Shown piece after piece: positions 13,710 through 21,418 of a stretch of 35,525 nucleotides of DNA (the first letter of the stretch is position 1; every line of letters begins with the position of its first letter). Below the pieces are notes generated by a model that made no database searches, was not told where the DNA came from, and was given only the letters and a program-made list of their open reading frames with translations. This DNA comes from Pirellulales bacterium. Lineage in GTDB: Bacteria; Planctomycetota; Planctomycetia; Pirellulales; Thermoguttaceae. Both the position numbers and the translations under genes were made by a program. The stretch lies in contig JAFGRD010000094.1 of NCBI GenBank assembly GCA_016935315.1, positions 1-35,525 of the forward strand, written 5' to 3'.

Positions 13710-14849
13710 CTACTCCACTTTGACCACGACCATCGTAATGTCGTCGCGCTGCGGCAGGTGCCGGGAGAATCCGGAGATTTCCTGATAGAGGGCATCGATG
13801 ATCGCCCGGGCCGGTTTGTCCCGTTCGGAATCGATGACCTGCAACGCACGCTCCGCACCGAAGCGGACCTTGCCGGGAGACTCGGCCTCGAACACCCCGT
13901 CGGTGAAGAACGTAACCAACTGTCCGGACTGGAGGGTCAGGGGTGGGCTGGCGGGCACGACCGAATCCCTCTCCACCCCCAGCGGAAGACTGGTGCTGTC
14001 GAGAGTCTTCACCCCATGATCGGAGTCGAGCAGGTAGCCGCGCTGTCCACAACTGGCGTAGACCAGCATGCGGGTTCCCGGGTCGAGCCGGGCCATGGCC
14101 AGCGTGATGAAATGGAAATCGCCCATGTCGGCGGCCAGCACGCGGTTGGCCCGGGTGAGAATGTCTCCCACGTCGGAGAAGGATTGGGCGAGCGTACGCA
14201 GGCAGGCTCGGGTTTCGGACATCAGGATCGCGGGCCCGACGCCGTGCCCGCTCACATCGCCGACCACGATGCCGATGCAGCCGTCGTTCATGGGGATGTA
14301 GTCGAAGTAGTCCCCGGCCGTTGCCTTGGCGGGATAGAGGGCTCCGGCGATGTCGAACCCGTTTACCGAGGGAGACCCGGCCGGAAACAGTCGTTGTTGG
14401 ATTTCCTGGGCAGCGCGGAACTCCTCCGAGGTGTTGCGCAGCGCCTCTTCCGCGTAGTGTCGTCTGCCTCGTTCGATGGCATAGCGGATGGAACGGACCA
14501 ACAGATTGTCGTCAACCTGCCCCTTGACGAGGTAGTCTTCCGCACCAGCCTGAACCGCCTTCATGGCGGTCATTTCGTCGTCGTAGCCGGAGAGGACCAC
14601 GATCGGTATGCCGCCGGCATGGGCGTGCATCGTGATGAATGTGCCCAGCCCCTGGCTGTCCGGCAACGCCAAGTCCAGCAGAATCACGTCGAAGAGCTCT
14701 TCATTGCAGCGTCTGAGGGCGAAAGAGAGCATTTCGACGTGGACCAGTTCGAACGGTCCATCCCAACGGTCGCCCAACAGGCTCCGCATCACCCAGACAT
14801 CGTCCGGATCATCCTCAACCAGCAGGATTCTGACCTTTTGACTTTCCAT
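13710..14849 (-). CDS. Response regulator with PP2C (SpoIIE/RsbU-type) phosphatase output
   Basis: 379 aa. Receiver domain at about 5-125 with acidic pocket EDD (12-14), phosphoacceptor Asp59 in ILLDLALPD and a YLVKG motif holding the conserved Lys. A helical linker follows (about 130-170; SEEFRAAQEIQQRLFP is the usual lead-in to RsbU-type domains). The PP2C domain from about 175 has GDYFDYI, VVGDVSGHG, FFTDGVFE and RDDITMVVV, which carry the metal-binding Asp residues. The family dephosphorylates anti-sigma-factor antagonists, so phosphorylation of the receiver probably controls a partner switch; no antagonist or anti-sigma gene is in the window. The start codon is 1 nt after the stop of the preceding receiver gene, indicating tight co-translation. 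Confidence 0.92.
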   Translation of the reverse strand: MESQKVRILLVEDDPDDVWVMRSLLGDRWDGPFELVHVEMLSFALRRCNEELFDVILLDLALPDSQGLGTFITMHAHAGGIPIVVLSGYDDEMTAMKAVQAGAEDYLVKGQVDDNLLVRSIRYAIERGRRHYAEEALRNTSEEFRAAQEIQQRLFPAGSPSVNGFDIAGALYPAKATAGDYFDYIPMNDGCIGIVVGDVSGHGVGPAILMSETRACLRTLAQSFSDVGDILTRANRVLAADMGDFHFITLAMARLDPGTRMLVYASCGQRGYLLDSDHGVKTLDSTSLPLGVERDSVVPASPPLTLQSGQLVTFFTDGVFEAESPGKVRFGAERALQVIDSERDKPARAIIDALYQEISGFSRHLPQRDDITMVVVKVE

Positions 14850-14850
14850 T

Positions 14851-15303
14851 TTACTCCAGACGCGGTAGTTCCACCAATTCGAACCAGTAGGTGCACAGGA
14901 TACTCATCATAGCGACCAGATCGCGAAAAGTCACGGGCTTGGTGACATAGGAGTTCACGCCCATGTCGTAGGAGAATTGGACGTCGTCGGCCGCCGTGGA
15001 AGTGGTCAGGGCGACAATGGGAATTCGCCGGAGTTGCGGGTCAGACTTCAACTGCTGGATCGCCTCGCGACCGTCCCGTTTCGGCATTTTCATGTCCAAT
15101 AAGATCAGATCAGGACAGGGGGCGTTCCGCCCGTCGCCGTAGTCGCCACGGCGTTGCAGGTAGTCCGCCAACTCCTCCCCGTCCCGCACGAAATACAGTT
15201 GGTGAGGTAGTTGGAGTTCGTCCAAGGCGTCCCTGACCAGCATGCAGTCGTCGGCGTCGTCGTCGGCCATCAGGATTGTAAAGGGTTTTGACCGCTTTGC
15301 CAT
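14851..15303 (-). CDS. Rcp-type single-domain response regulator
   Basis: 150 aa, receiver only. Acidic residues DDD at 14-16, phosphoacceptor Asp70 in LILLDMKMP, Thr at about 101 and Lys122 in VTKP complete the active site. The insertion YLQRRGDYGDGRNAPCPD before the phosphorylation strand is characteristic of the Rcp1 family, which usually serves phytochrome-like kinases. No output domain, so it probably acts as a phosphorelay shuttle between the kinase 6 nt upstream and the receiver-PP2C protein 1 nt downstream (inference). Confidence 0.92.
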   Translation of the reverse strand: MAKRSKPFTILMADDDADDCMLVRDALDELQLPHQLYFVRDGEELADYLQRRGDYGDGRNAPCPDLILLDMKMPKRDGREAIQQLKSDPQLRRIPIVALTTSTAADDVQFSYDMGVNSYVTKPVTFRDLVAMMSILCTYWFELVELPRLE

Positions 15304-15309
15304 GACGGG

Positions 15310-17259
15310 CTATTCCTTCTGCTCCTTCCCCTTTCCCCTCTTGGGGTGGGCAATGGGCAGCACTACCTCGAAGGTGGACCCGCCGCCGGGAACACTCTCG
15401 GCCGTAATCGACCCGCCGTGCCGCTCGACGATCTTCCGGCAGATCGGCAGCCCGATGCCCGTTCCGTCGTAGACATCACGCGGGTGTAGCCGCTGGAAAA
15501 CACCGAAGACCCGATCCAGATGTCGTATCTCGAACCCGATCCCGTTGTCCTCAACCACAATGCGGCATCGTTCCCCCAGAAGCGAGGCCCCGGCCTCGCG
15601 CTGCTTGCGGCCCTCGACGAACCGTCCATGGATTTTGACCACCGGCGGGGCCTCCGGGCGACGGAACTTCAGCGCGTTGCCGATCAGGTTTTGCAGGAGT
15701 TGCCGCATCTGGAGGGGATCGGCCTGGATCACCGGCAGTTTTCCCACTGCTACCCGGCCTCCCACGCGTTCGATCTGTACCTCCAGATCGGAGACGACCT
15801 CGCGGGCGATTTCCCCCAGGTCGACCCGCTCGAAGTTGCGGCCTCGGGTCGTGACGCGCGAGAGCGTCAGCAACCCTTCGATCAACGTTTGCATCCGCTC
15901 GGCCGCGCTCTGCATCCGGTCGATGCACTCGCGGCCGGTTTCGTCGAGCTGGTCGGCACATTTCACTTCCAGCCGGTCACTGAACGTGCGGATCTTCCGC
16001 AACGGCTCCTGCAAGTCGTGCGACGCCACGTAGGCGAACTGCTCCAACTCCTGGTTGGAGCGTTCCAACTCGGCCGCGTAACGTGCTTGTTCGTCCTCCG
16101 CCTTCTTGCGCTGACTGATGTCGCGGACGAAAAAGGTCAGCACGGGGGCGCCCTGCTCGTGGCTGATGGTCATGGCCATCTCGGCGGGAAAGGTCTCGCC
16201 GCTGGCCCGAACGGCCGTCACTTCGATTCGCCGGCCCAACAGCGAGCCCTCTCCGGCGTCGAGGTAGCGGTCGATACGGTTCTGGTGTCCGGCACTCTTG
16301 GAGGGCGGGAAGAGAACCTCGGAAGGTTGCGTGCCCAGCACCCTTTCACGCGCGTGGCCGAAGGTCTGTTCCGCCGCCCGATTGAACTCGGTGATGACAC
16401 CTTGGTGGTTGATGGTGATGATCGGATCCAGGGCCGACTCGAGGATGGCGTGCTTTCGGGCCTGGGATTCGGCCAGGGCGCGTTCCAGGCGTATCTGGTC
16501 GCTGGCGTCGCGGTGGATAATCGCCAGGCACGAGGGCTTGTCGCTGTGGGAACCTCGGACCAGAAGCATCGTGGTCAGCACGTAGACCAGCTTGCCCGTC
16601 TGGACGTTGCGGATCTGACTCTGGCCTTCCCACAGTCCCGTCTCCTTCACTGCCGGCACAGCCACGTCGCGCAACTCCTCCCACGACTCGTCCGTGTAGT
16701 AGTCGTGCAGCGTGTTGGATAAGGTGGTCTCCTCTTCGGTGAGCCCCAGCAGACGGCATCCGGCCGGATTCAGATAAAAGGGCTTTCCGTGCAACGTGGC
16801 CATGCAGATGAAGGCGTCGACACTGTGAGCCAGGGCCACGAACGTATCTCGCTGGTGCAAGCTGCCCGGCTCCTCGGCCAGAAGGATTTCGACGTAGTGA
16901 CCGCGTAATCGATGGATCGCGTTGCCCAACTCGGTCAGCACGGACAGCAGAGCCGCCTTCTGATTGATCGCCTTGACGGCGTGGAACCGGACGGCCCGTT
17001 CCAGACAATTCAACCCGGTCATCACCTCGGCATAGGGCACGCCCACGGAAACGGCTTCGTCGCGAAGCACCCGGGCCCAGTCCGAGGCAGAACTCTCGTT
17101 GCCGGGCGTGTGGCAGTTGCGTAACCCATCGAGCAAGGCCCGGCAACTGCCGGCCTGCGTTTGCAGCAGCTTGGGACACTGAGCCTGTTCGAGACTCTCG
17201 AAGAGCGTTAGATAAATCTCTTCCTCGTGGACGTCCAGGATGTTCAGCAAGTCGCTCAT
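15310..17259 (-). CDS. PAS-domain sensor histidine kinase, soluble
   Basis: 649 aa without transmembrane helices, so a cytoplasmic sensor. Residues 1-130 form an all-helical domain rich in Leu and Glu with no assigned family, possibly an RsbR/RsbT-type N-terminal sensor. Two PAS domains follow: about 138-255 (DAFICMATLHGKPFYLNPAG) and about 268-385 (ALDPIITINHQGVITEFN). HisKA has the phosphoacceptor His414 in YVASHDLQEPLRKI, a signature of the phytochrome-like subgroup. The ATPase domain shows the N box QNLIGNALKF, the G1 box VEDNGIGFE and the G2 box GTGIGLPICRKIVERHGG. First gene of a three-gene operon with Rcp and receiver-PP2C. It starts 33 nt after the stop of the 994-aa gene and may be co-transcribed with it. 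Confidence 0.93.
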   Translation of the reverse strand: MSDLLNILDVHEEEIYLTLFESLEQAQCPKLLQTQAGSCRALLDGLRNCHTPGNESSASDWARVLRDEAVSVGVPYAEVMTGLNCLERAVRFHAVKAINQKAALLSVLTELGNAIHRLRGHYVEILLAEEPGSLHQRDTFVALAHSVDAFICMATLHGKPFYLNPAGCRLLGLTEEETTLSNTLHDYYTDESWEELRDVAVPAVKETGLWEGQSQIRNVQTGKLVYVLTTMLLVRGSHSDKPSCLAIIHRDASDQIRLERALAESQARKHAILESALDPIITINHQGVITEFNRAAEQTFGHARERVLGTQPSEVLFPPSKSAGHQNRIDRYLDAGEGSLLGRRIEVTAVRASGETFPAEMAMTISHEQGAPVLTFFVRDISQRKKAEDEQARYAAELERSNQELEQFAYVASHDLQEPLRKIRTFSDRLEVKCADQLDETGRECIDRMQSAAERMQTLIEGLLTLSRVTTRGRNFERVDLGEIAREVVSDLEVQIERVGGRVAVGKLPVIQADPLQMRQLLQNLIGNALKFRRPEAPPVVKIHGRFVEGRKQREAGASLLGERCRIVVEDNGIGFEIRHLDRVFGVFQRLHPRDVYDGTGIGLPICRKIVERHGGSITAESVPGGGSTFEVVLPIAHPKRGKGKEQKE

Positions 17260-17292: not shown

Positions 17293-20277
17293 TCAGTCGG
17301 TTCTCCGCTCCGGCGCCGACGCGGGCTCCGGTTCGACCGGCACGCCTTGTACCTGCTCATCTTCGCTCAGCACACGCAGCGCATCCGGGCCCCTGGGGAC
17401 GTCACCCCGGCGAGAGTAGCGATAGTACACTTCCAGCGTCAAAACGGCCAACGCCGTGGTGTAGATTCGTCCGCCTCGATCCCCCCAACGCGTATCCGGA
17501 TCCCAACTGCCGCGTTCACAGCCGTCGTGCCGCTGCAGTCCGACGACCGTATCGCGGATGATGCCGTTCCACCGATTCCAGGGTTCGCCGCCAGCGTGGA
17601 ACATGGCAAGCGTGCAATTGTACCATGTATAGTAATTATACTCCAGCCGATATGCCAGACCACGGCTTTCCACCACACCTTCGGCCGCCGAGCGTTCGGC
17701 CAGGTCGGCCAGGTACGCGGCGGCCTCGCCGATGACCGGCGCGTCCGTCTCATCGAACAGGAATTGCCGAACCAACATGCCGATGCCGGTCGTGGCGTCG
17801 CTTTCCTGCTTGACTTCGTACCCGTCGTTCCGATACCAAGTGCGACCGTTCTGCTCCCGCAGCATGCGCCGGAAGAAGGCGCGAATGTCCTCGATGCACC
17901 GGCTGCTTACCTCCAGGCCAGCCTCCTGGGCCGATTTCAGCGCCAACGCTTGCCAACCGCTGACGGACGTATCGCCGGGACGCTCGAACTTATCGGTGTA
18001 TCGCCAACCTCCGTCGTCGTGCTGCTGGCTTTCAATGTAGAGCACCGCCTTCTGACAGGCCTCGAGGTACCGCTTGCCCACCGGCTCGCCGGAAGCGATG
18101 GCGGCCGCACAGGCGTCCGCCAGGGCGAAGGTGGCGATGCCCTGGTCGTACATGTAGCACGAGTGATACCGGGAGTGTCCCTCCTTCGGTTTGTCACTGA
18201 CCAGGGCGCCGTCGGGCCGCTGGTGCGCGACCATCCAGTCGAGCGCCCGGCGCACGCGATCGGAGTATTGCCGACCGTTGAAGTAGTAGTGTCCCCCAGC
18301 CTGGAAAGCCAACAGGGCCAGGCCGGTTTGCGCCATTTCGTACTTACGGCCCGGGCCGGCGCACGGGGCGCCCGGCTCGCATTGTGAGTGCTTGCCGTCG
18401 GCCAGACACTCGCTCGACCAGAAGCCTTCCGGCGCCTGGTGCCTGGCAAGCCACTCGAGACCCTCGGCCACCGCCCGTTCGCTCTGCGGGCTGCCGCCAT
18501 AGTCGCCGATCCAGGCTAGGCGGTCGGCTTCGGTCCGCATCTTGTATTTCTCTTCGGTGACGTTTTCCGACTCGACTGTTCGATAGCGATCGATCTTCTC
18601 GACCTCGGCGGTCCCTTCCGGTGTGACGCGGATGGCACAGATATCCCACACGTTGCCTACCTGATCGCCCCCGGCACGGAAGACGTACGTCTGGCCGCTC
18701 TGATACAGTCTCACTTCAGCCCTCGATTGGGCCAGCGTGTTGCTCCGCAGGTTGTGGCGGTTCGTGTAGTCGTGGACATAGTAGCGATAAACGCCGGGCG
18801 AAACTCCCAGTACGGTGACCGTTTCCGGCCCCCAGCCGCGACGGTTGTCGACGTCGAGGCGGACGAACTCTTCGCTCTTTAAGTCGCCCGGCCTGCCGTG
18901 GTAGACGTGGAACCGCGTGTCGTCGGGCAAGGGACCCTCCAGGTGGGCGTCGAGATCCTCGGGCGTGCGACCCCAGGTCAACACGATGCGGATCTGCCCT
19001 TCGGCCATGCCGGGGCTCAGTGCGACCCGGACGTAATTCTCGTCGTCGGCGGTCAGTTCCCTCTCGAACCGGCCGCCCGTGAAGCCGTCGGCGGAGACTT
19101 CGATTCGCTGCGGGCCGATCGAGGCCCCCTCGATCCGAAACGCGCCTCCGGCGTCGGTCTCCGTGCCCAAAGAGGTCCCTTCGACCCGGACGCGGGCATG
19201 GGGCACCGGCTGGTTGTTGATGGCGTTGACGATTTGTCCACGGAGTACGCCTTGGCCGGCGGCGGCCCCGATCGGCGGCACCCGCAACGGTTGAGTCGTC
19301 CGTCGCCAGCCGTCCAGATAGGTCACCGAGATGACATCCCCCGTTTGGAGGCCGCCGATTCGCCAGTCGAATTCCTGCCGCCCGCCCGCCGCACCCGGCA
19401 CAATGCGATCGAGGACTTCTGTTTGCCGGCTGCCATCGGTCCTGGCAAAACCGATGGTGCCGCTGCTGAGGGGACGAAAGCAGAGGGCCACCCGGTCGGG
19501 ATCGGCCACGTCCCGGCGGATATCGAAGTCGGGATCGATCTTGGCGTAGCTCAACACCGACGTGGCATAGAGTGTCGCCAAACAGGCCAACCCCAGCAAG
19601 ACGGCCGCGATGGTCGCGTTGCTCAACAGAATGCTGCGACGTTTGCCCCGACGCACACGGTGCTGGAGACCCTCCAACTGGCATCGAAACTCCGGCGGCA
19701 GCTCGTCCCAGTTCGGCCCGGCCGCGGAATCGTCGATCATCGGGGCACGTTCATCGACTGCCCGTTCTGGTCGCCCCGTCCCCGGTGGCGGCGGGGGGCT
19801 GATACCGGGCATCTCCCCTGCCCGATCGGCCGGGGTGAGACTTCCCGGCGGCGGAGGCGGCGCCACAGTCCGCATCTCCCCAGCCTGGCGTGCGCCCATG
19901 CCCGGCGGAGGCGGCGTAGCGGACGTCATCTCACCGACCGGCGGCCCGTCGCCAAGCATTCCCGGCGGCGGCGGGGGCATTGACGGCATTTCTCCAAGCG
20001 ACTGATCAGACACGCCTGGCGGCGGCGGAATCGACAACATCTCGCCGCTGCTTACGAAGGGACCGCTCGGCGGAGGTGCCGGTGTGATCGGCGATGCCTC
20101 CCCGTTGCTCACAACCGAGCCGCCCGGTGCAGCAGGGCAGCTCGGTGCCGGAGGTGGCGTTGGCATGCCGTCGGCCGAGTCTCGGCGCAATCCGCACGGC
20201 TGGCCGCAATCGGGAAACGGGCAGACGGCCGCACTGTCGGCGATTTCTCTTCCACAACTCAGGCACCGCTTGACCAC
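17293..20277 (-). CDS. Zinc-ribbon, Pro-rich, membrane-spanning protein with YfaP-like and toroid domains
   Basis: 994 aa from the GTG at 20277. In order: zinc ribbon (Cys5, 8, 19, 24, with Cys28); a low-complexity region (about 58-165) of six GE(M/A)-(x)n-PPPP-G units; a basic stretch; one transmembrane helix at about 216-240; an ectodomain module (246-334) resembling the one in the neighbouring VWA protein; a carboxypeptidase-regulatory-like beta sandwich (343-422, RGQIVNAINNQPVPHARVRV); a YfaP/DUF2135-like domain (427-505, LTWGRTPEDLDAHL, YRYYVHDY); and a C-terminal alpha/alpha toroid of squalene-cyclase/prenyltransferase type from about 620 (LEWLARHQAPEGFW, WMVAHQRPDGAL, IESQQHDDGGWRY). 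No cyclase DxDD motif was seen, so the toroid is probably non-catalytic. The GTG start has GGAGGCGAGG upstream; an ATG at 20391 would overlap the VWA gene by 77 bp. Function unknown. Confidence 0.8.
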   Translation of the reverse strand: MVKRCLSCGREIADSAAVCPFPDCGQPCGLRRDSADGMPTPPPAPSCPAAPGGSVVSNGEASPITPAPPPSGPFVSSGEMLSIPPPPGVSDQSLGEMPSMPPPPPGMLGDGPPVGEMTSATPPPPGMGARQAGEMRTVAPPPPPGSLTPADRAGEMPGISPPPPPGTGRPERAVDERAPMIDDSAAGPNWDELPPEFRCQLEGLQHRVRRGKRRSILLSNATIAAVLLGLACLATLYATSVLSYAKIDPDFDIRRDVADPDRVALCFRPLSSGTIGFARTDGSRQTEVLDRIVPGAAGGRQEFDWRIGGLQTGDVISVTYLDGWRRTTQPLRVPPIGAAAGQGVLRGQIVNAINNQPVPHARVRVEGTSLGTETDAGGAFRIEGASIGPQRIEVSADGFTGGRFERELTADDENYVRVALSPGMAEGQIRIVLTWGRTPEDLDAHLEGPLPDDTRFHVYHGRPGDLKSEEFVRLDVDNRRGWGPETVTVLGVSPGVYRYYVHDYTNRHNLRSNTLAQSRAEVRLYQSGQTYVFRAGGDQVGNVWDICAIRVTPEGTAEVEKIDRYRTVESENVTEEKYKMRTEADRLAWIGDYGGSPQSERAVAEGLEWLARHQAPEGFWSSECLADGKHSQCEPGAPCAGPGRKYEMAQTGLALLAFQAGGHYYFNGRQYSDRVRRALDWMVAHQRPDGALVSDKPKEGHSRYHSCYMYDQGIATFALADACAAAIASGEPVGKRYLEACQKAVLYIESQQHDDGGWRYTDKFERPGDTSVSGWQALALKSAQEAGLEVSSRCIEDIRAFFRRMLREQNGRTWYRNDGYEVKQESDATTGIGMLVRQFLFDETDAPVIGEAAAYLADLAERSAAEGVVESRGLAYRLEYNYYTWYNCTLAMFHAGGEPWNRWNGIIRDTVVGLQRHDGCERGSWDPDTRWGDRGGRIYTTALAVLTLEVYYRYSRRGDVPRGPDALRVLSEDEQVQGVPVEPEPASAPERRTD

Positions 20278-20314
20278 GTTATCCTCGCCTCCCAATCCAC
20301 GCCGCCCCAGCGTG

Positions 20315-21418
20315 TCAATCCCCCAGAACCCGCCCCTCGCTGAGCACTCTGCCGAAGTGTCCGATCTCCCGAAATCTCCCCGCTTCGCCAAGCAGCCTCA
20401 TGTAGTCGGGCTTGAATCGGGCCTTGGAGAAGACCCACAGCAACACCTTCTCCTCGTGCAACCGCGTGGCCACGTCTTCGGCGGTGGCGCCGGACCGGCT
20501 TGGCTCGTGATACGTGGCGTCGGTCACCAGGTAGAACTGGCGGATCGCGCCCCGGTCGAAGGGGAGTTGCAGGGCCGCCTCCAGAGCGTCCAGTGCCGAT
20601 TCGGGAGCGTCGCCCCCGTCGAATCGTCGCACTTCGTCCACCGCGCGAACGAACGCGTCAACGTCGGAGGTGAAGTCGCGCCGGTCGATCCAGGACGTCT
20701 CTTGGGTGTCGCCGAAACCGATCAACGCGAAGCGGTGTTTTAGGGCCTGCTTTCGAAGCTGCTCCGAGAAGGTGGCACATTTCTTCTTAAGCTCGTCGAT
20801 ACTGGGGCTCATCGAGCCGGTGGTATCCATCAGGATGACGATGTCGGCCCGGTCCGCCGTCGTGAAGGTCTGCTCGTGAAGCCGTCGAAACAGGCCGCGG
20901 CGATACCAGAACTTCACGTCGATGTCCTCGCCGGGGCGATAGACCCACGACCAGGGACGGTCGACGTCACACGGCTCGGCGAAGGTGTCGATCAGGTCGG
21001 CCTCGATGGGTCCCGACGTCCGCCGGCAATAGACCATGCCCGGCGAAAGCACGCGAAACTTGATCTCGAGCCGACTCTGATTGGCCGGATGCTGCGAGAT
21101 TTCGATGCCGTCGATGACCGCATAGGCGCCGATGGTCGCCCGATACACGATCCAGAAGACGACCAGCAACGTCAGCAGGCCGCCCCCCAGCGCCAGGGCC
21201 AGGTATCGGTTGCGGACCCCGATCGTGCGATCCTCGACTTGCAGCCGGTTCAGCCACGCCTGCATTTCGCCGGACGCCATCATGTCGGCCGCAGGGCGCT
21301 GCGGCACGCCGGACCGCATTGCGGCGGACGAGGCCGGCGGGGCTTCTGGGGGGCTGGGGTCCGGGTCTCCAGACGTGCTCATGGTCGGCTCGTTCAGGGT
21401 GGCAGATACCTCTTTCAT
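20315..21418 (-). CDS. Membrane-anchored VWA-domain protein
   Basis: 367 aa. A Pro/Ser/Ala-rich cytoplasmic N-terminus contains one SGEM motif (49-52), like the repeats of the next gene. Transmembrane helix at about 73-92; then an ectodomain module (98-186) similar to that of the 994-aa protein; then a von Willebrand factor A domain from about 190. The metal-ion-dependent adhesion site is DTTGSMS (Asp198, Ser202, Ser204), with further VWA signatures FALIGFGD and YLVTDATYHE. VWA domains bind protein ligands through a metal ion. ATG at 21382 (MSTSGD) is an alternative start. The stop is 37 nt before the GTG of the 994-aa gene, so they form an operon and probably one membrane complex (inference). 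Confidence 0.87.
   Translation of the reverse strand: MKEVSATLNEPTMSTSGDPDPSPPEAPPASSAAMRSGVPQRPAADMMASGEMQAWLNRLQVEDRTIGVRNRYLALALGGGLLTLLVVFWIVYRATIGAYAVIDGIEISQHPANQSRLEIKFRVLSPGMVYCRRTSGPIEADLIDTFAEPCDVDRPWSWVYRPGEDIDVKFWYRRGLFRRLHEQTFTTADRADIVILMDTTGSMSPSIDELKKKCATFSEQLRKQALKHRFALIGFGDTQETSWIDRRDFTSDVDAFVRAVDEVRRFDGGDAPESALDALEAALQLPFDRGAIRQFYLVTDATYHEPSRSGATAEDVATRLHEEKVLLWVFSKARFKPDYMRLLGEAGRFREIGHFGRVLSEGRVLGD

Follow-up and report, generated by a model that had tools for sequence, protein, structure and literature searches.

Two adjacent minus-strand genes in a 35,525-nt contig of a Pirellulales bacterium (JAFGRD010000094.1; "the window" below means this whole stretch) encode a protein with a VWA domain and a 994-aa protein with an alpha/alpha toroid, and the two share a homologous module composed of a juxtamembrane coil, one transmembrane (TM) helix and an ectodomain of ~90 residues. 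A common TM-plus-ectodomain unit had been proposed in an earlier note on this DNA, and it proved to be real. BLASTP comparison of the two proteins (a one-sequence search with word size 2 and composition correction off) gave E = 2e-7 for a match that runs from the end of the linker through the coil and TM helix into the beginning of the ectodomain. Alignment of profiles built from the modules of six VWA-type and 10 toroid-type orthologues with hhalign gave P = 4.8e-10 over 97 columns, and the ectodomains alone gave P = 9.7e-5 over 47 columns, with an HHsuite "probability" of only 58%. When columns were shuffled within the coil, TM and ectodomain segments, none of 300 shuffles matched the real score, for the whole module (62.0 vs 24.5 for the best shuffle and 16.3 for a reversed profile) and for the ectodomain (28.0 vs 18.4 and 7.2) alike. 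The pairwise match takes in the TM helix and was scored without composition correction, as might be expected of chance or low-complexity TM-helix similarity, but the ectodomain result, the segment-confined shuffles and the same strands in both structural models leave that explanation a negligible probability, and we rejected it on the hhalign and shuffle data.

The likeness had been described as extending over about 85 residues, with YAVID (residue 99 of the VWA protein) and YAKID (residue 244 of the 994-aa protein; 282 of a longer, 1032-aa ORF) just behind the membrane helix. The profile alignment reaches only the first ~47 ectodomain residues and bears out this part; the remainder is supported by four ectodomain pairs out of 60 whose alignments span 73-80 residues (E 1.4e-5 to 1.9e-4), by a conserved tryptophan column and by the model strands. 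When 16 modules are aligned jointly, A52 and G79 never vary, and Y51 and W110 hardly do. AlphaFold2 models of the VWA protein (pLDDT 83.9, pTM 0.70, alignment of 14 rows) and of a 786-aa fragment of the toroid protein both predict a long helix and then seven strands at corresponding positions, a correspondence read off the two model outputs with no superposition computed. Counted from the YA motif, the strands span 2-10, 17-26, 28-36, 39-47, 51-58, 67-75 and 78-86 in the VWA protein and 2-11, 18-25, 29-37, 40-48, 57-62, 71-78 and 81-88 in the toroid protein. An SGEM motif found in both proteins, also cited in the earlier note as a sign of duplication, did not hold up, being neither positional nor conserved. 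In the VWA protein it opens the coil (49-52), and two of 13 orthologues have it. The toroid protein contains five GE[MVI] motifs in its proline-rich linker, of which SGEM is one, ~115 residues ahead of the module coil; it occurs in 0 of nine further toroid orthologues listed, and in four of these nine a contig end has cut off the N-terminus.

No Pfam or NCBIfam model matched the ectodomain, which represents a family listed by neither collection here. The module sequence matched no known structure (best E 0.22), and the fold searches barely probed the module itself.

Architecture of the two proteins

Both proteins lie at the positions and in the reading frames that the earlier note had assigned to them. 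The features that define them are as follows.

20315-21418, minus strand: gene of the VWA protein, 367 aa, first of the cluster (ORF; PF25106 VWA_4, 2.1e-14)
21134-21274, minus strand: VWA protein, juxtamembrane coil and TM helix, residues 49-95 (predicted helix 49-95; hydropathy peak)
20861-21124, minus strand: VWA protein, shared seven-strand ectodomain, residues 99-186 (hhalign; alignment A1; model strands 101-185)
20336-20851, minus strand: VWA domain with metal-ion-dependent adhesion site (MIDAS) DxTxS, residues 190-361 (Pfam; motif conservation)
17293-20277, minus strand: gene of the toroid protein, 994 aa, GTG start (ORF; start chosen from orthologues)
20206-20268, minus strand: toroid protein, N-terminal zinc-ribbon-like motif CxxCx(n)CPxxxC, predicted cytoplasmic (orthologue motif)
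19552-19698, minus strand: toroid protein, coil and TM helix of the shared module (hhalign; alignment; model; hydropathy)
19279-19548, minus strand: toroid protein, shared seven-strand ectodomain (hhalign; alignment; model strands 38-124 of the 786-aa fragment)
19018-19245, minus strand: toroid protein, CarboxypepD_reg-like domain (PF13620, 1.4e-12)
18580-18993, minus strand: toroid protein, all-beta region with no family assigned (strands 221-358 of the 786-aa fragment)
17413-18519, minus strand: alpha/alpha toroid, resembling the squalene-hopene cyclase fold (PF13243, 1.8e-8; VIA Z 23.1)

The GTG start of the toroid protein was preferred because its orthologues start shortly ahead of the zinc ribbon (MRRCQWC, MKQCPWC); the 1032-aa ORF, which starts from TTG at 20391, is unlikely. 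Charge bias places the N-terminus inside in 24 of 28 modules. The proline-rich linkers carry repeats that differ by lineage (GEM/PPPPG, VEPPV or FTGxIPxAPP).

The VWA domain is well conserved, with Pfam VWA_2 detected at E <= 0.01 in all 14 VWA-type proteins, a VWA fold in the model, and a MIDAS in which DxTxS is kept in 14/14, the loop-3 Asp in 13/14 and the GGD-type Asp in 12/14. The C-terminal tail of the protein (20318-20335) ends in L-[EG]-D in 13 of 13 orthologues and is preceded by GR[VIF] in 10 of the 13, suggesting a functional C-terminus.

The zinc-ribbon-like motif is found in seven of 11 listed toroid-type sequences, the other four being cut by a contig end; Pfam Zn_ribbon_3 falls under the cut-off (E 0.26) in a relative from genus g113 (here and below, G, L and g with a number denote genomes, loci and genera). 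Among the heads assigned to the 994-aa protein in the earlier note, CarboxypepD_reg and the toroid stand and the YfaP label does not: neither this nor any other Pfam family was listed for that stretch at E <= 1, though the region is predicted to be all-beta. PF13243 is detected in six of the eight rows of alignment A4, and the remaining two lack the toroid. The toroid resembles squalene-hopene cyclase and prenyltransferase toroids in fold and superposes on structure 2sqc over 287 residues at 3.6 A, but the DxDD that serves as the catalytic motif of the cyclase is not in the toroid of any of 11 toroid-bearing proteins. A D.DD[TAS] pattern had no match in 10 of the 11, and by context the match in G221 lies in the beta region. 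The arrangement of beta-sandwiches followed by an alpha/alpha toroid also recalls complement C3, the top Foldseek match, and alpha-2-macroglobulin (A2M); here, in contrast, the rmsd is ~33 A, so that the whole is not one superposable body, and CGEQ, the thioester motif of A2M and C3, is found in 0 of 14 proteins, 11 of them toroid-bearing. Because both DxDD and the thioester motif are missing, the toroid is most likely a binding scaffold and probably non-catalytic.

Distribution, linkage and history of the module

Among 119 genomes from the family to which the window belongs, a profile search that scored up to 34 first-look candidates in each found the module in 16, including a marginal match in G173 (E 0.0039, internal stop) that was excluded from the 15 genomes with a clear module. 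Two copies are present in 12 genomes and one in four, and never more than two. Across the phylum, the sole match in 392 genomes was the window's own, in a search that scored 10 first-look candidates per genome, a depth at which distant copies may escape. In the window's genome itself (7.1 Mb, 172 contigs), a single-sequence search returned the two genes and three weak places (E 0.024 to 0.22), and the profile search returned the two genes only, on which ground a use of the module as a general anchor was rejected. With the whole VWA protein as the query, 14 of 196 genomes of the order had a match, mostly to the VWA domain alone. A scan of genome contigs with a single-protein query matched none, while alignment A2 as the query found 16 loci there, 13 with the module and three (L174-L176) with the VWA part only; viral contigs gave one locus, again VWA only.

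The two genes tend to remain neighbors. In seven of the 12 two-copy genomes the pair is adjacent on one contig (G000, G199, G223, G161, G220, G216, G217), and in another four (G110, G219, G221, G222) the VWA contig ends inside an ORF with a toroid-type N-terminus, so that adjacency, inferred across a contig break in these four, is kept in 11/12. The repetitive proline-rich linkers may explain why contigs break there. Locus L166 is one further adjacent pair. The record that holds L161 (JABMRB010000800.1) is titled Candidatus Nealsonbacteria, but its ORF places equal those of G199:C666 of the window's family, and it looks as if the record name is wrong or the bin mixed. A VWA-type module fragment was also noted at L099 (G250:C262, 1129-1482), in a 118-aa frame that does not continue into a VWA domain.

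In a tree of 28 modules (14 VWA-type and 14 toroid-type), the two types form two clades with support 100/100, and we regard a single old duplication of the module, in an ancestor of part of this planctomycete family, as well supported by that split. The duplication of a membrane module carrying different heads, as the earlier note had it, agrees with these clades, with the limit of two copies per genome and with a naked form of the module in g113. In the three g113 genomes (G216, G217, G218), the partner of the VWA protein has the proline-rich linker, the TM helix and the ectodomain and then stops, with no toroid; its zinc ribbon is visible in G216 and G217, and the G218 contig starts inside the linker.

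The module might instead have moved between unlinked genes by recombination or fusion rather than by tandem gene duplication. The VWA and toroid heads are unrelated, and toroid-like domains are widespread in the family (the 786-aa query matches 114 of 119 genomes, the rows shown covering mostly the toroid part), from which it would follow that one head was swapped or added. However, the adjacency, constant order and two-copy limit fit a tandem copy, and the naked g113 form offers a plausible intermediate of tandem copying, though it may equally be a loss. We consider the transfer between unlinked genes doubtful.

A candidate surface complex and its alternatives

Module, linkage and duplication are accompanied by the co-occurrence of two further genes. 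A large glycine-rich protein is encoded near the VWA gene in nine of 11 loci compared, the window not being among them. Its start is signal-peptide-like (by eye), and its last 300 residues form a propeller-like domain, whose profile matches designed Pizza6 propellers (1.8e-4); Vgb_lyase is listed for five of 10 members (best 2.8e-6) and NHL for two of 10, and in the L161 sequence NHL is found below the cut-off only. The propeller gene is present in 25 of the 119 family genomes, including 15/15 with a clear module (Fisher test, kinship ignored: 8e-13 by genome, 4e-5 by genus). It is followed by a gene for a small protein in 14 of 15 propeller loci, the fifteenth being cut, and in nine of nine in a second set. 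One of three small proteins scanned matched secretin PF00263 above the cut-off (3.4e-11; positions 91-160 of 169), and the other two matched it below the cut-off (1.6e-5 and 0.0074). Propeller, secretin-like, VWA, toroid and kinase genes follow one another in this order on one 12.4-kb contig in L161/G199; in the window's genome the propeller and secretin-like genes are on another contig (L145). A set of co-inherited genes is thereby defined: propeller, secretin-like, VWA and toroid, joined in some lineages by kinase, regulator and SpoIIE genes. In the propeller proteins (L101 16411-18711, L052 3369-5447 and relatives), the N-terminal part is separated from the propeller by long His/Asp-rich and Gly-rich stretches that may bind metal. 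The module fragment at L099 shares its 3.2-kb contig with a propeller gene.

On these observations, namely homology, a single duplication, kept linkage and co-occurrence with the propeller and secretin-like genes, we lean, with modest confidence, towards the two proteins being a paired surface receptor or adhesion complex. Both would be paralogous single-pass membrane proteins built on one module of coil, TM helix and seven-strand beta-sandwich. One copy would bear the VWA domain with its metal-ion adhesion site outside the cell; the other would carry CarboxypepD_reg, a further beta region and the probably non-catalytic toroid outside and the zinc ribbon and proline-rich repeat tail inside, with one genus keeping the naked module. 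The shared coil, TM helix and sandwich could pair the proteins side by side, the VWA metal site could bind a ligand or the co-inherited propeller-like protein, and a change on binding might be relayed across the membrane to the tail with its zinc ribbon and proline repeats; in the lineage of the window it might also reach the histidine kinase, response regulator and SpoIIE phosphatase encoded downstream. The earlier note had the pair probably forming one surface complex. Linkage, the co-occurrence of the propeller gene and mirrored trees (clade distances correlate with r = 0.85 across 13 genomes, a value reached in 0 of 5000 permutations) give that claim indirect support only and make a physical complex plausible.

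Several observations weigh against such a complex. Mirrored trees are expected from vertical co-inheritance alone. The toroid is dispensable, since the g113 partner has none; G196 carries its VWA and toroid-type genes on different contigs; in 10 genomes the propeller was found but no module was; four of 28 modules lack the charge bias for an inside N-terminus; and the model of the toroid-protein fragment is of modest quality (pLDDT 72.0, pTM 0.49, eight rows). The kinase relatives found apart from the pair and the g12 toroid genes with no kinase behind them, both given below, count on the same side; the kinase ORF that follows the toroid-type gene outside g12 and the tight gene spacing speak for the complex.

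The strongest alternative is that the module is a mere anchor and stalk for two independent surface proteins that form no complex and serve unrelated tasks. Module identity averages 19% within genomes vs 18% between genomes, so that no specific matching is visible, and this alternative would also account for the g113 partner without an outer head and for the separate contigs of G196. Against it, a limit of two copies per genome is odd for a general anchor, the linkage is kept in nearly all two-copy genomes, and the naked-module protein would anchor nothing outside. We judge this alternative a real possibility, though not a probable one.

Downstream of the toroid gene, the window contains three further genes of the cluster.

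15310-17259, minus strand: histidine kinase PAS-PAS-HisKA-HATPase, 33 bp downstream of the toroid gene (Pfam; gap)
14851-15303, minus strand: receiver-only response regulator (PF00072)
13710-14849, minus strand: receiver-SpoIIE phosphatase (PF00072 and PF07228)

Read along the minus strand from the VWA gene to the receiver-SpoIIE gene, the intergenic gaps are 37, 33, 6 and 1 bp; his genes (IGPD, aminotransferase, histidinol dehydrogenase) lie upstream, 177 bp from the VWA gene. The tight spacing might indicate that the pair is the sensory input of the kinase, regulator and SpoIIE unit. Consistent with this, a kinase ORF directly follows the toroid-type gene in six of six genomes outside g12 where the position is visible (the window's, G199, G216, G217, G218 and G196, the last with an ORF of 246 aa matching the kinase part only), and in G209, a genome without the module, the genes for the propeller and the secretin-like protein directly precede the kinase, regulator and SpoIIE genes. 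However, the kinase follows the toroid gene in 0 of six g12 genomes with visible downstream sequence (G223, G161, G220, G110, G222, G219), and its N-terminal part had no match in any g12 genome. Relatives of the kinase occur without the VWA/toroid pair in G079, G210, G169, G204 and G102, the kinase being found in other family genomes alone or with the regulator and SpoIIE genes. We judge a role of the pair as sensory input unlikely. With relatives of the kinase found without the pair, and the g12 pair without a match to the N-terminal part of the kinase, signaling through it cannot be general and would be possible for part of the family only. Both this proposal and transfer by recombination can be joined to either the paired complex or the plain anchor, and for this reason the probabilities we attach to these readings need not total one.

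The neighbors of the kinase differ in some of the genomes without the pair. In G169 and G204, a gene that by eye looks Ser/Thr kinase-like and has a membrane segment (L180 7124-9793; L181 2735-5386) precedes the kinase relative and occupies the place of the window's toroid gene. In G102, the kinase, regulator and SpoIIE genes are followed downstream by L183 3871-6294, which encodes a membrane protein that by eye we take to resemble the MG domains of alpha-2-macroglobulin.

Comparison with known systems

Among the matches listed (title and start of abstract; subscription journals mostly outside), no paper dealt with this module or gene pair. The host family is little studied and is represented here largely by metagenome-assembled genomes. 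A scan with PADLOC for defence systems gave weak partial matches only. The receiver end of the SpoIIE protein had the best of them (5.6e-5) and the TM region in the VWA protein another (0.0025), and a defence role was rejected on that basis. TerY-type triads are VWA phosphorylation loci in which a zinc ribbon is fused to the VWA domain. As in these triads, a VWA domain, a zinc ribbon and a SpoIIE/PP2C-type phosphatase meet in one locus here, but the partner carries the zinc ribbon, the kinase belongs to the histidine kinases and each of the two proteins has a membrane anchor; by eye, there are three cysteines in the VWA protein, with no CxxC among them.

Among PDB structures, the VWA model comes closest to integrin beta chains (VIA Z 20.1, 180 residues, 2.5 A), and Pfam Integrin_beta is found in eight of 14 VWA orthologues at E <= 0.01. 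This likeness is VWA similarity, because the matching rows lie mostly within the VWA part (185-367), a TFIIH subunit (4wfq) follows closely (Z 18.7) and general VWA models score higher. In the present protein, as in integrin beta and HC1, an inter-alpha-trypsin inhibitor (ITI) heavy chain, an external stalk holds the VWA domain beside a beta-sandwich. In integrin beta and HC1, the VWA domain is inserted into the hybrid domain (PMC7170535). Here, in contrast, all seven predicted strands (101-185) precede the VWA domain (190 on). Bacteria, including planctomycetes, have been reported to possess integrin-type propellers (PMC3192720); the propeller-like domain here differs in resembling NHL and Vgb_lyase types.

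PilY1, a secreted protein with a VWA domain and a C-terminal domain of the propeller type, offers a second comparison. The VWA domain of this type IV pilus tip adhesin is proposed as a surface-force sensor, and a single chain carries the signal sequence, the VWA and the C-terminal domain (PMC9210963). Secretin-like and propeller-like genes co-occur with the VWA gene here, but the VWA protein is membrane-anchored, its VWA domain is at the end and the propeller is a separate gene. An ambitious extension would make the pair an independently assembled bacterial counterpart of integrin and PilY1 receptors, in which a VWA stalk and a paralogous toroid stalk dock a propeller and a secretin-derived protein through the metal site and pass binding or force to the proline-rich tail and, in some lineages, to a phosphorelay; we think this improbable. 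Were the pair a receptor, it would show cleanly how a single membrane scaffold was duplicated and each copy fitted with its own head, and would offer a bacterial parallel, open to test, for adhesion receptors of the VWA-propeller kind. In G223, a prepilin-like ORF (L100 72-1067; GFTLVELL start, by eye) lies ~9 kb away from the VWA gene.

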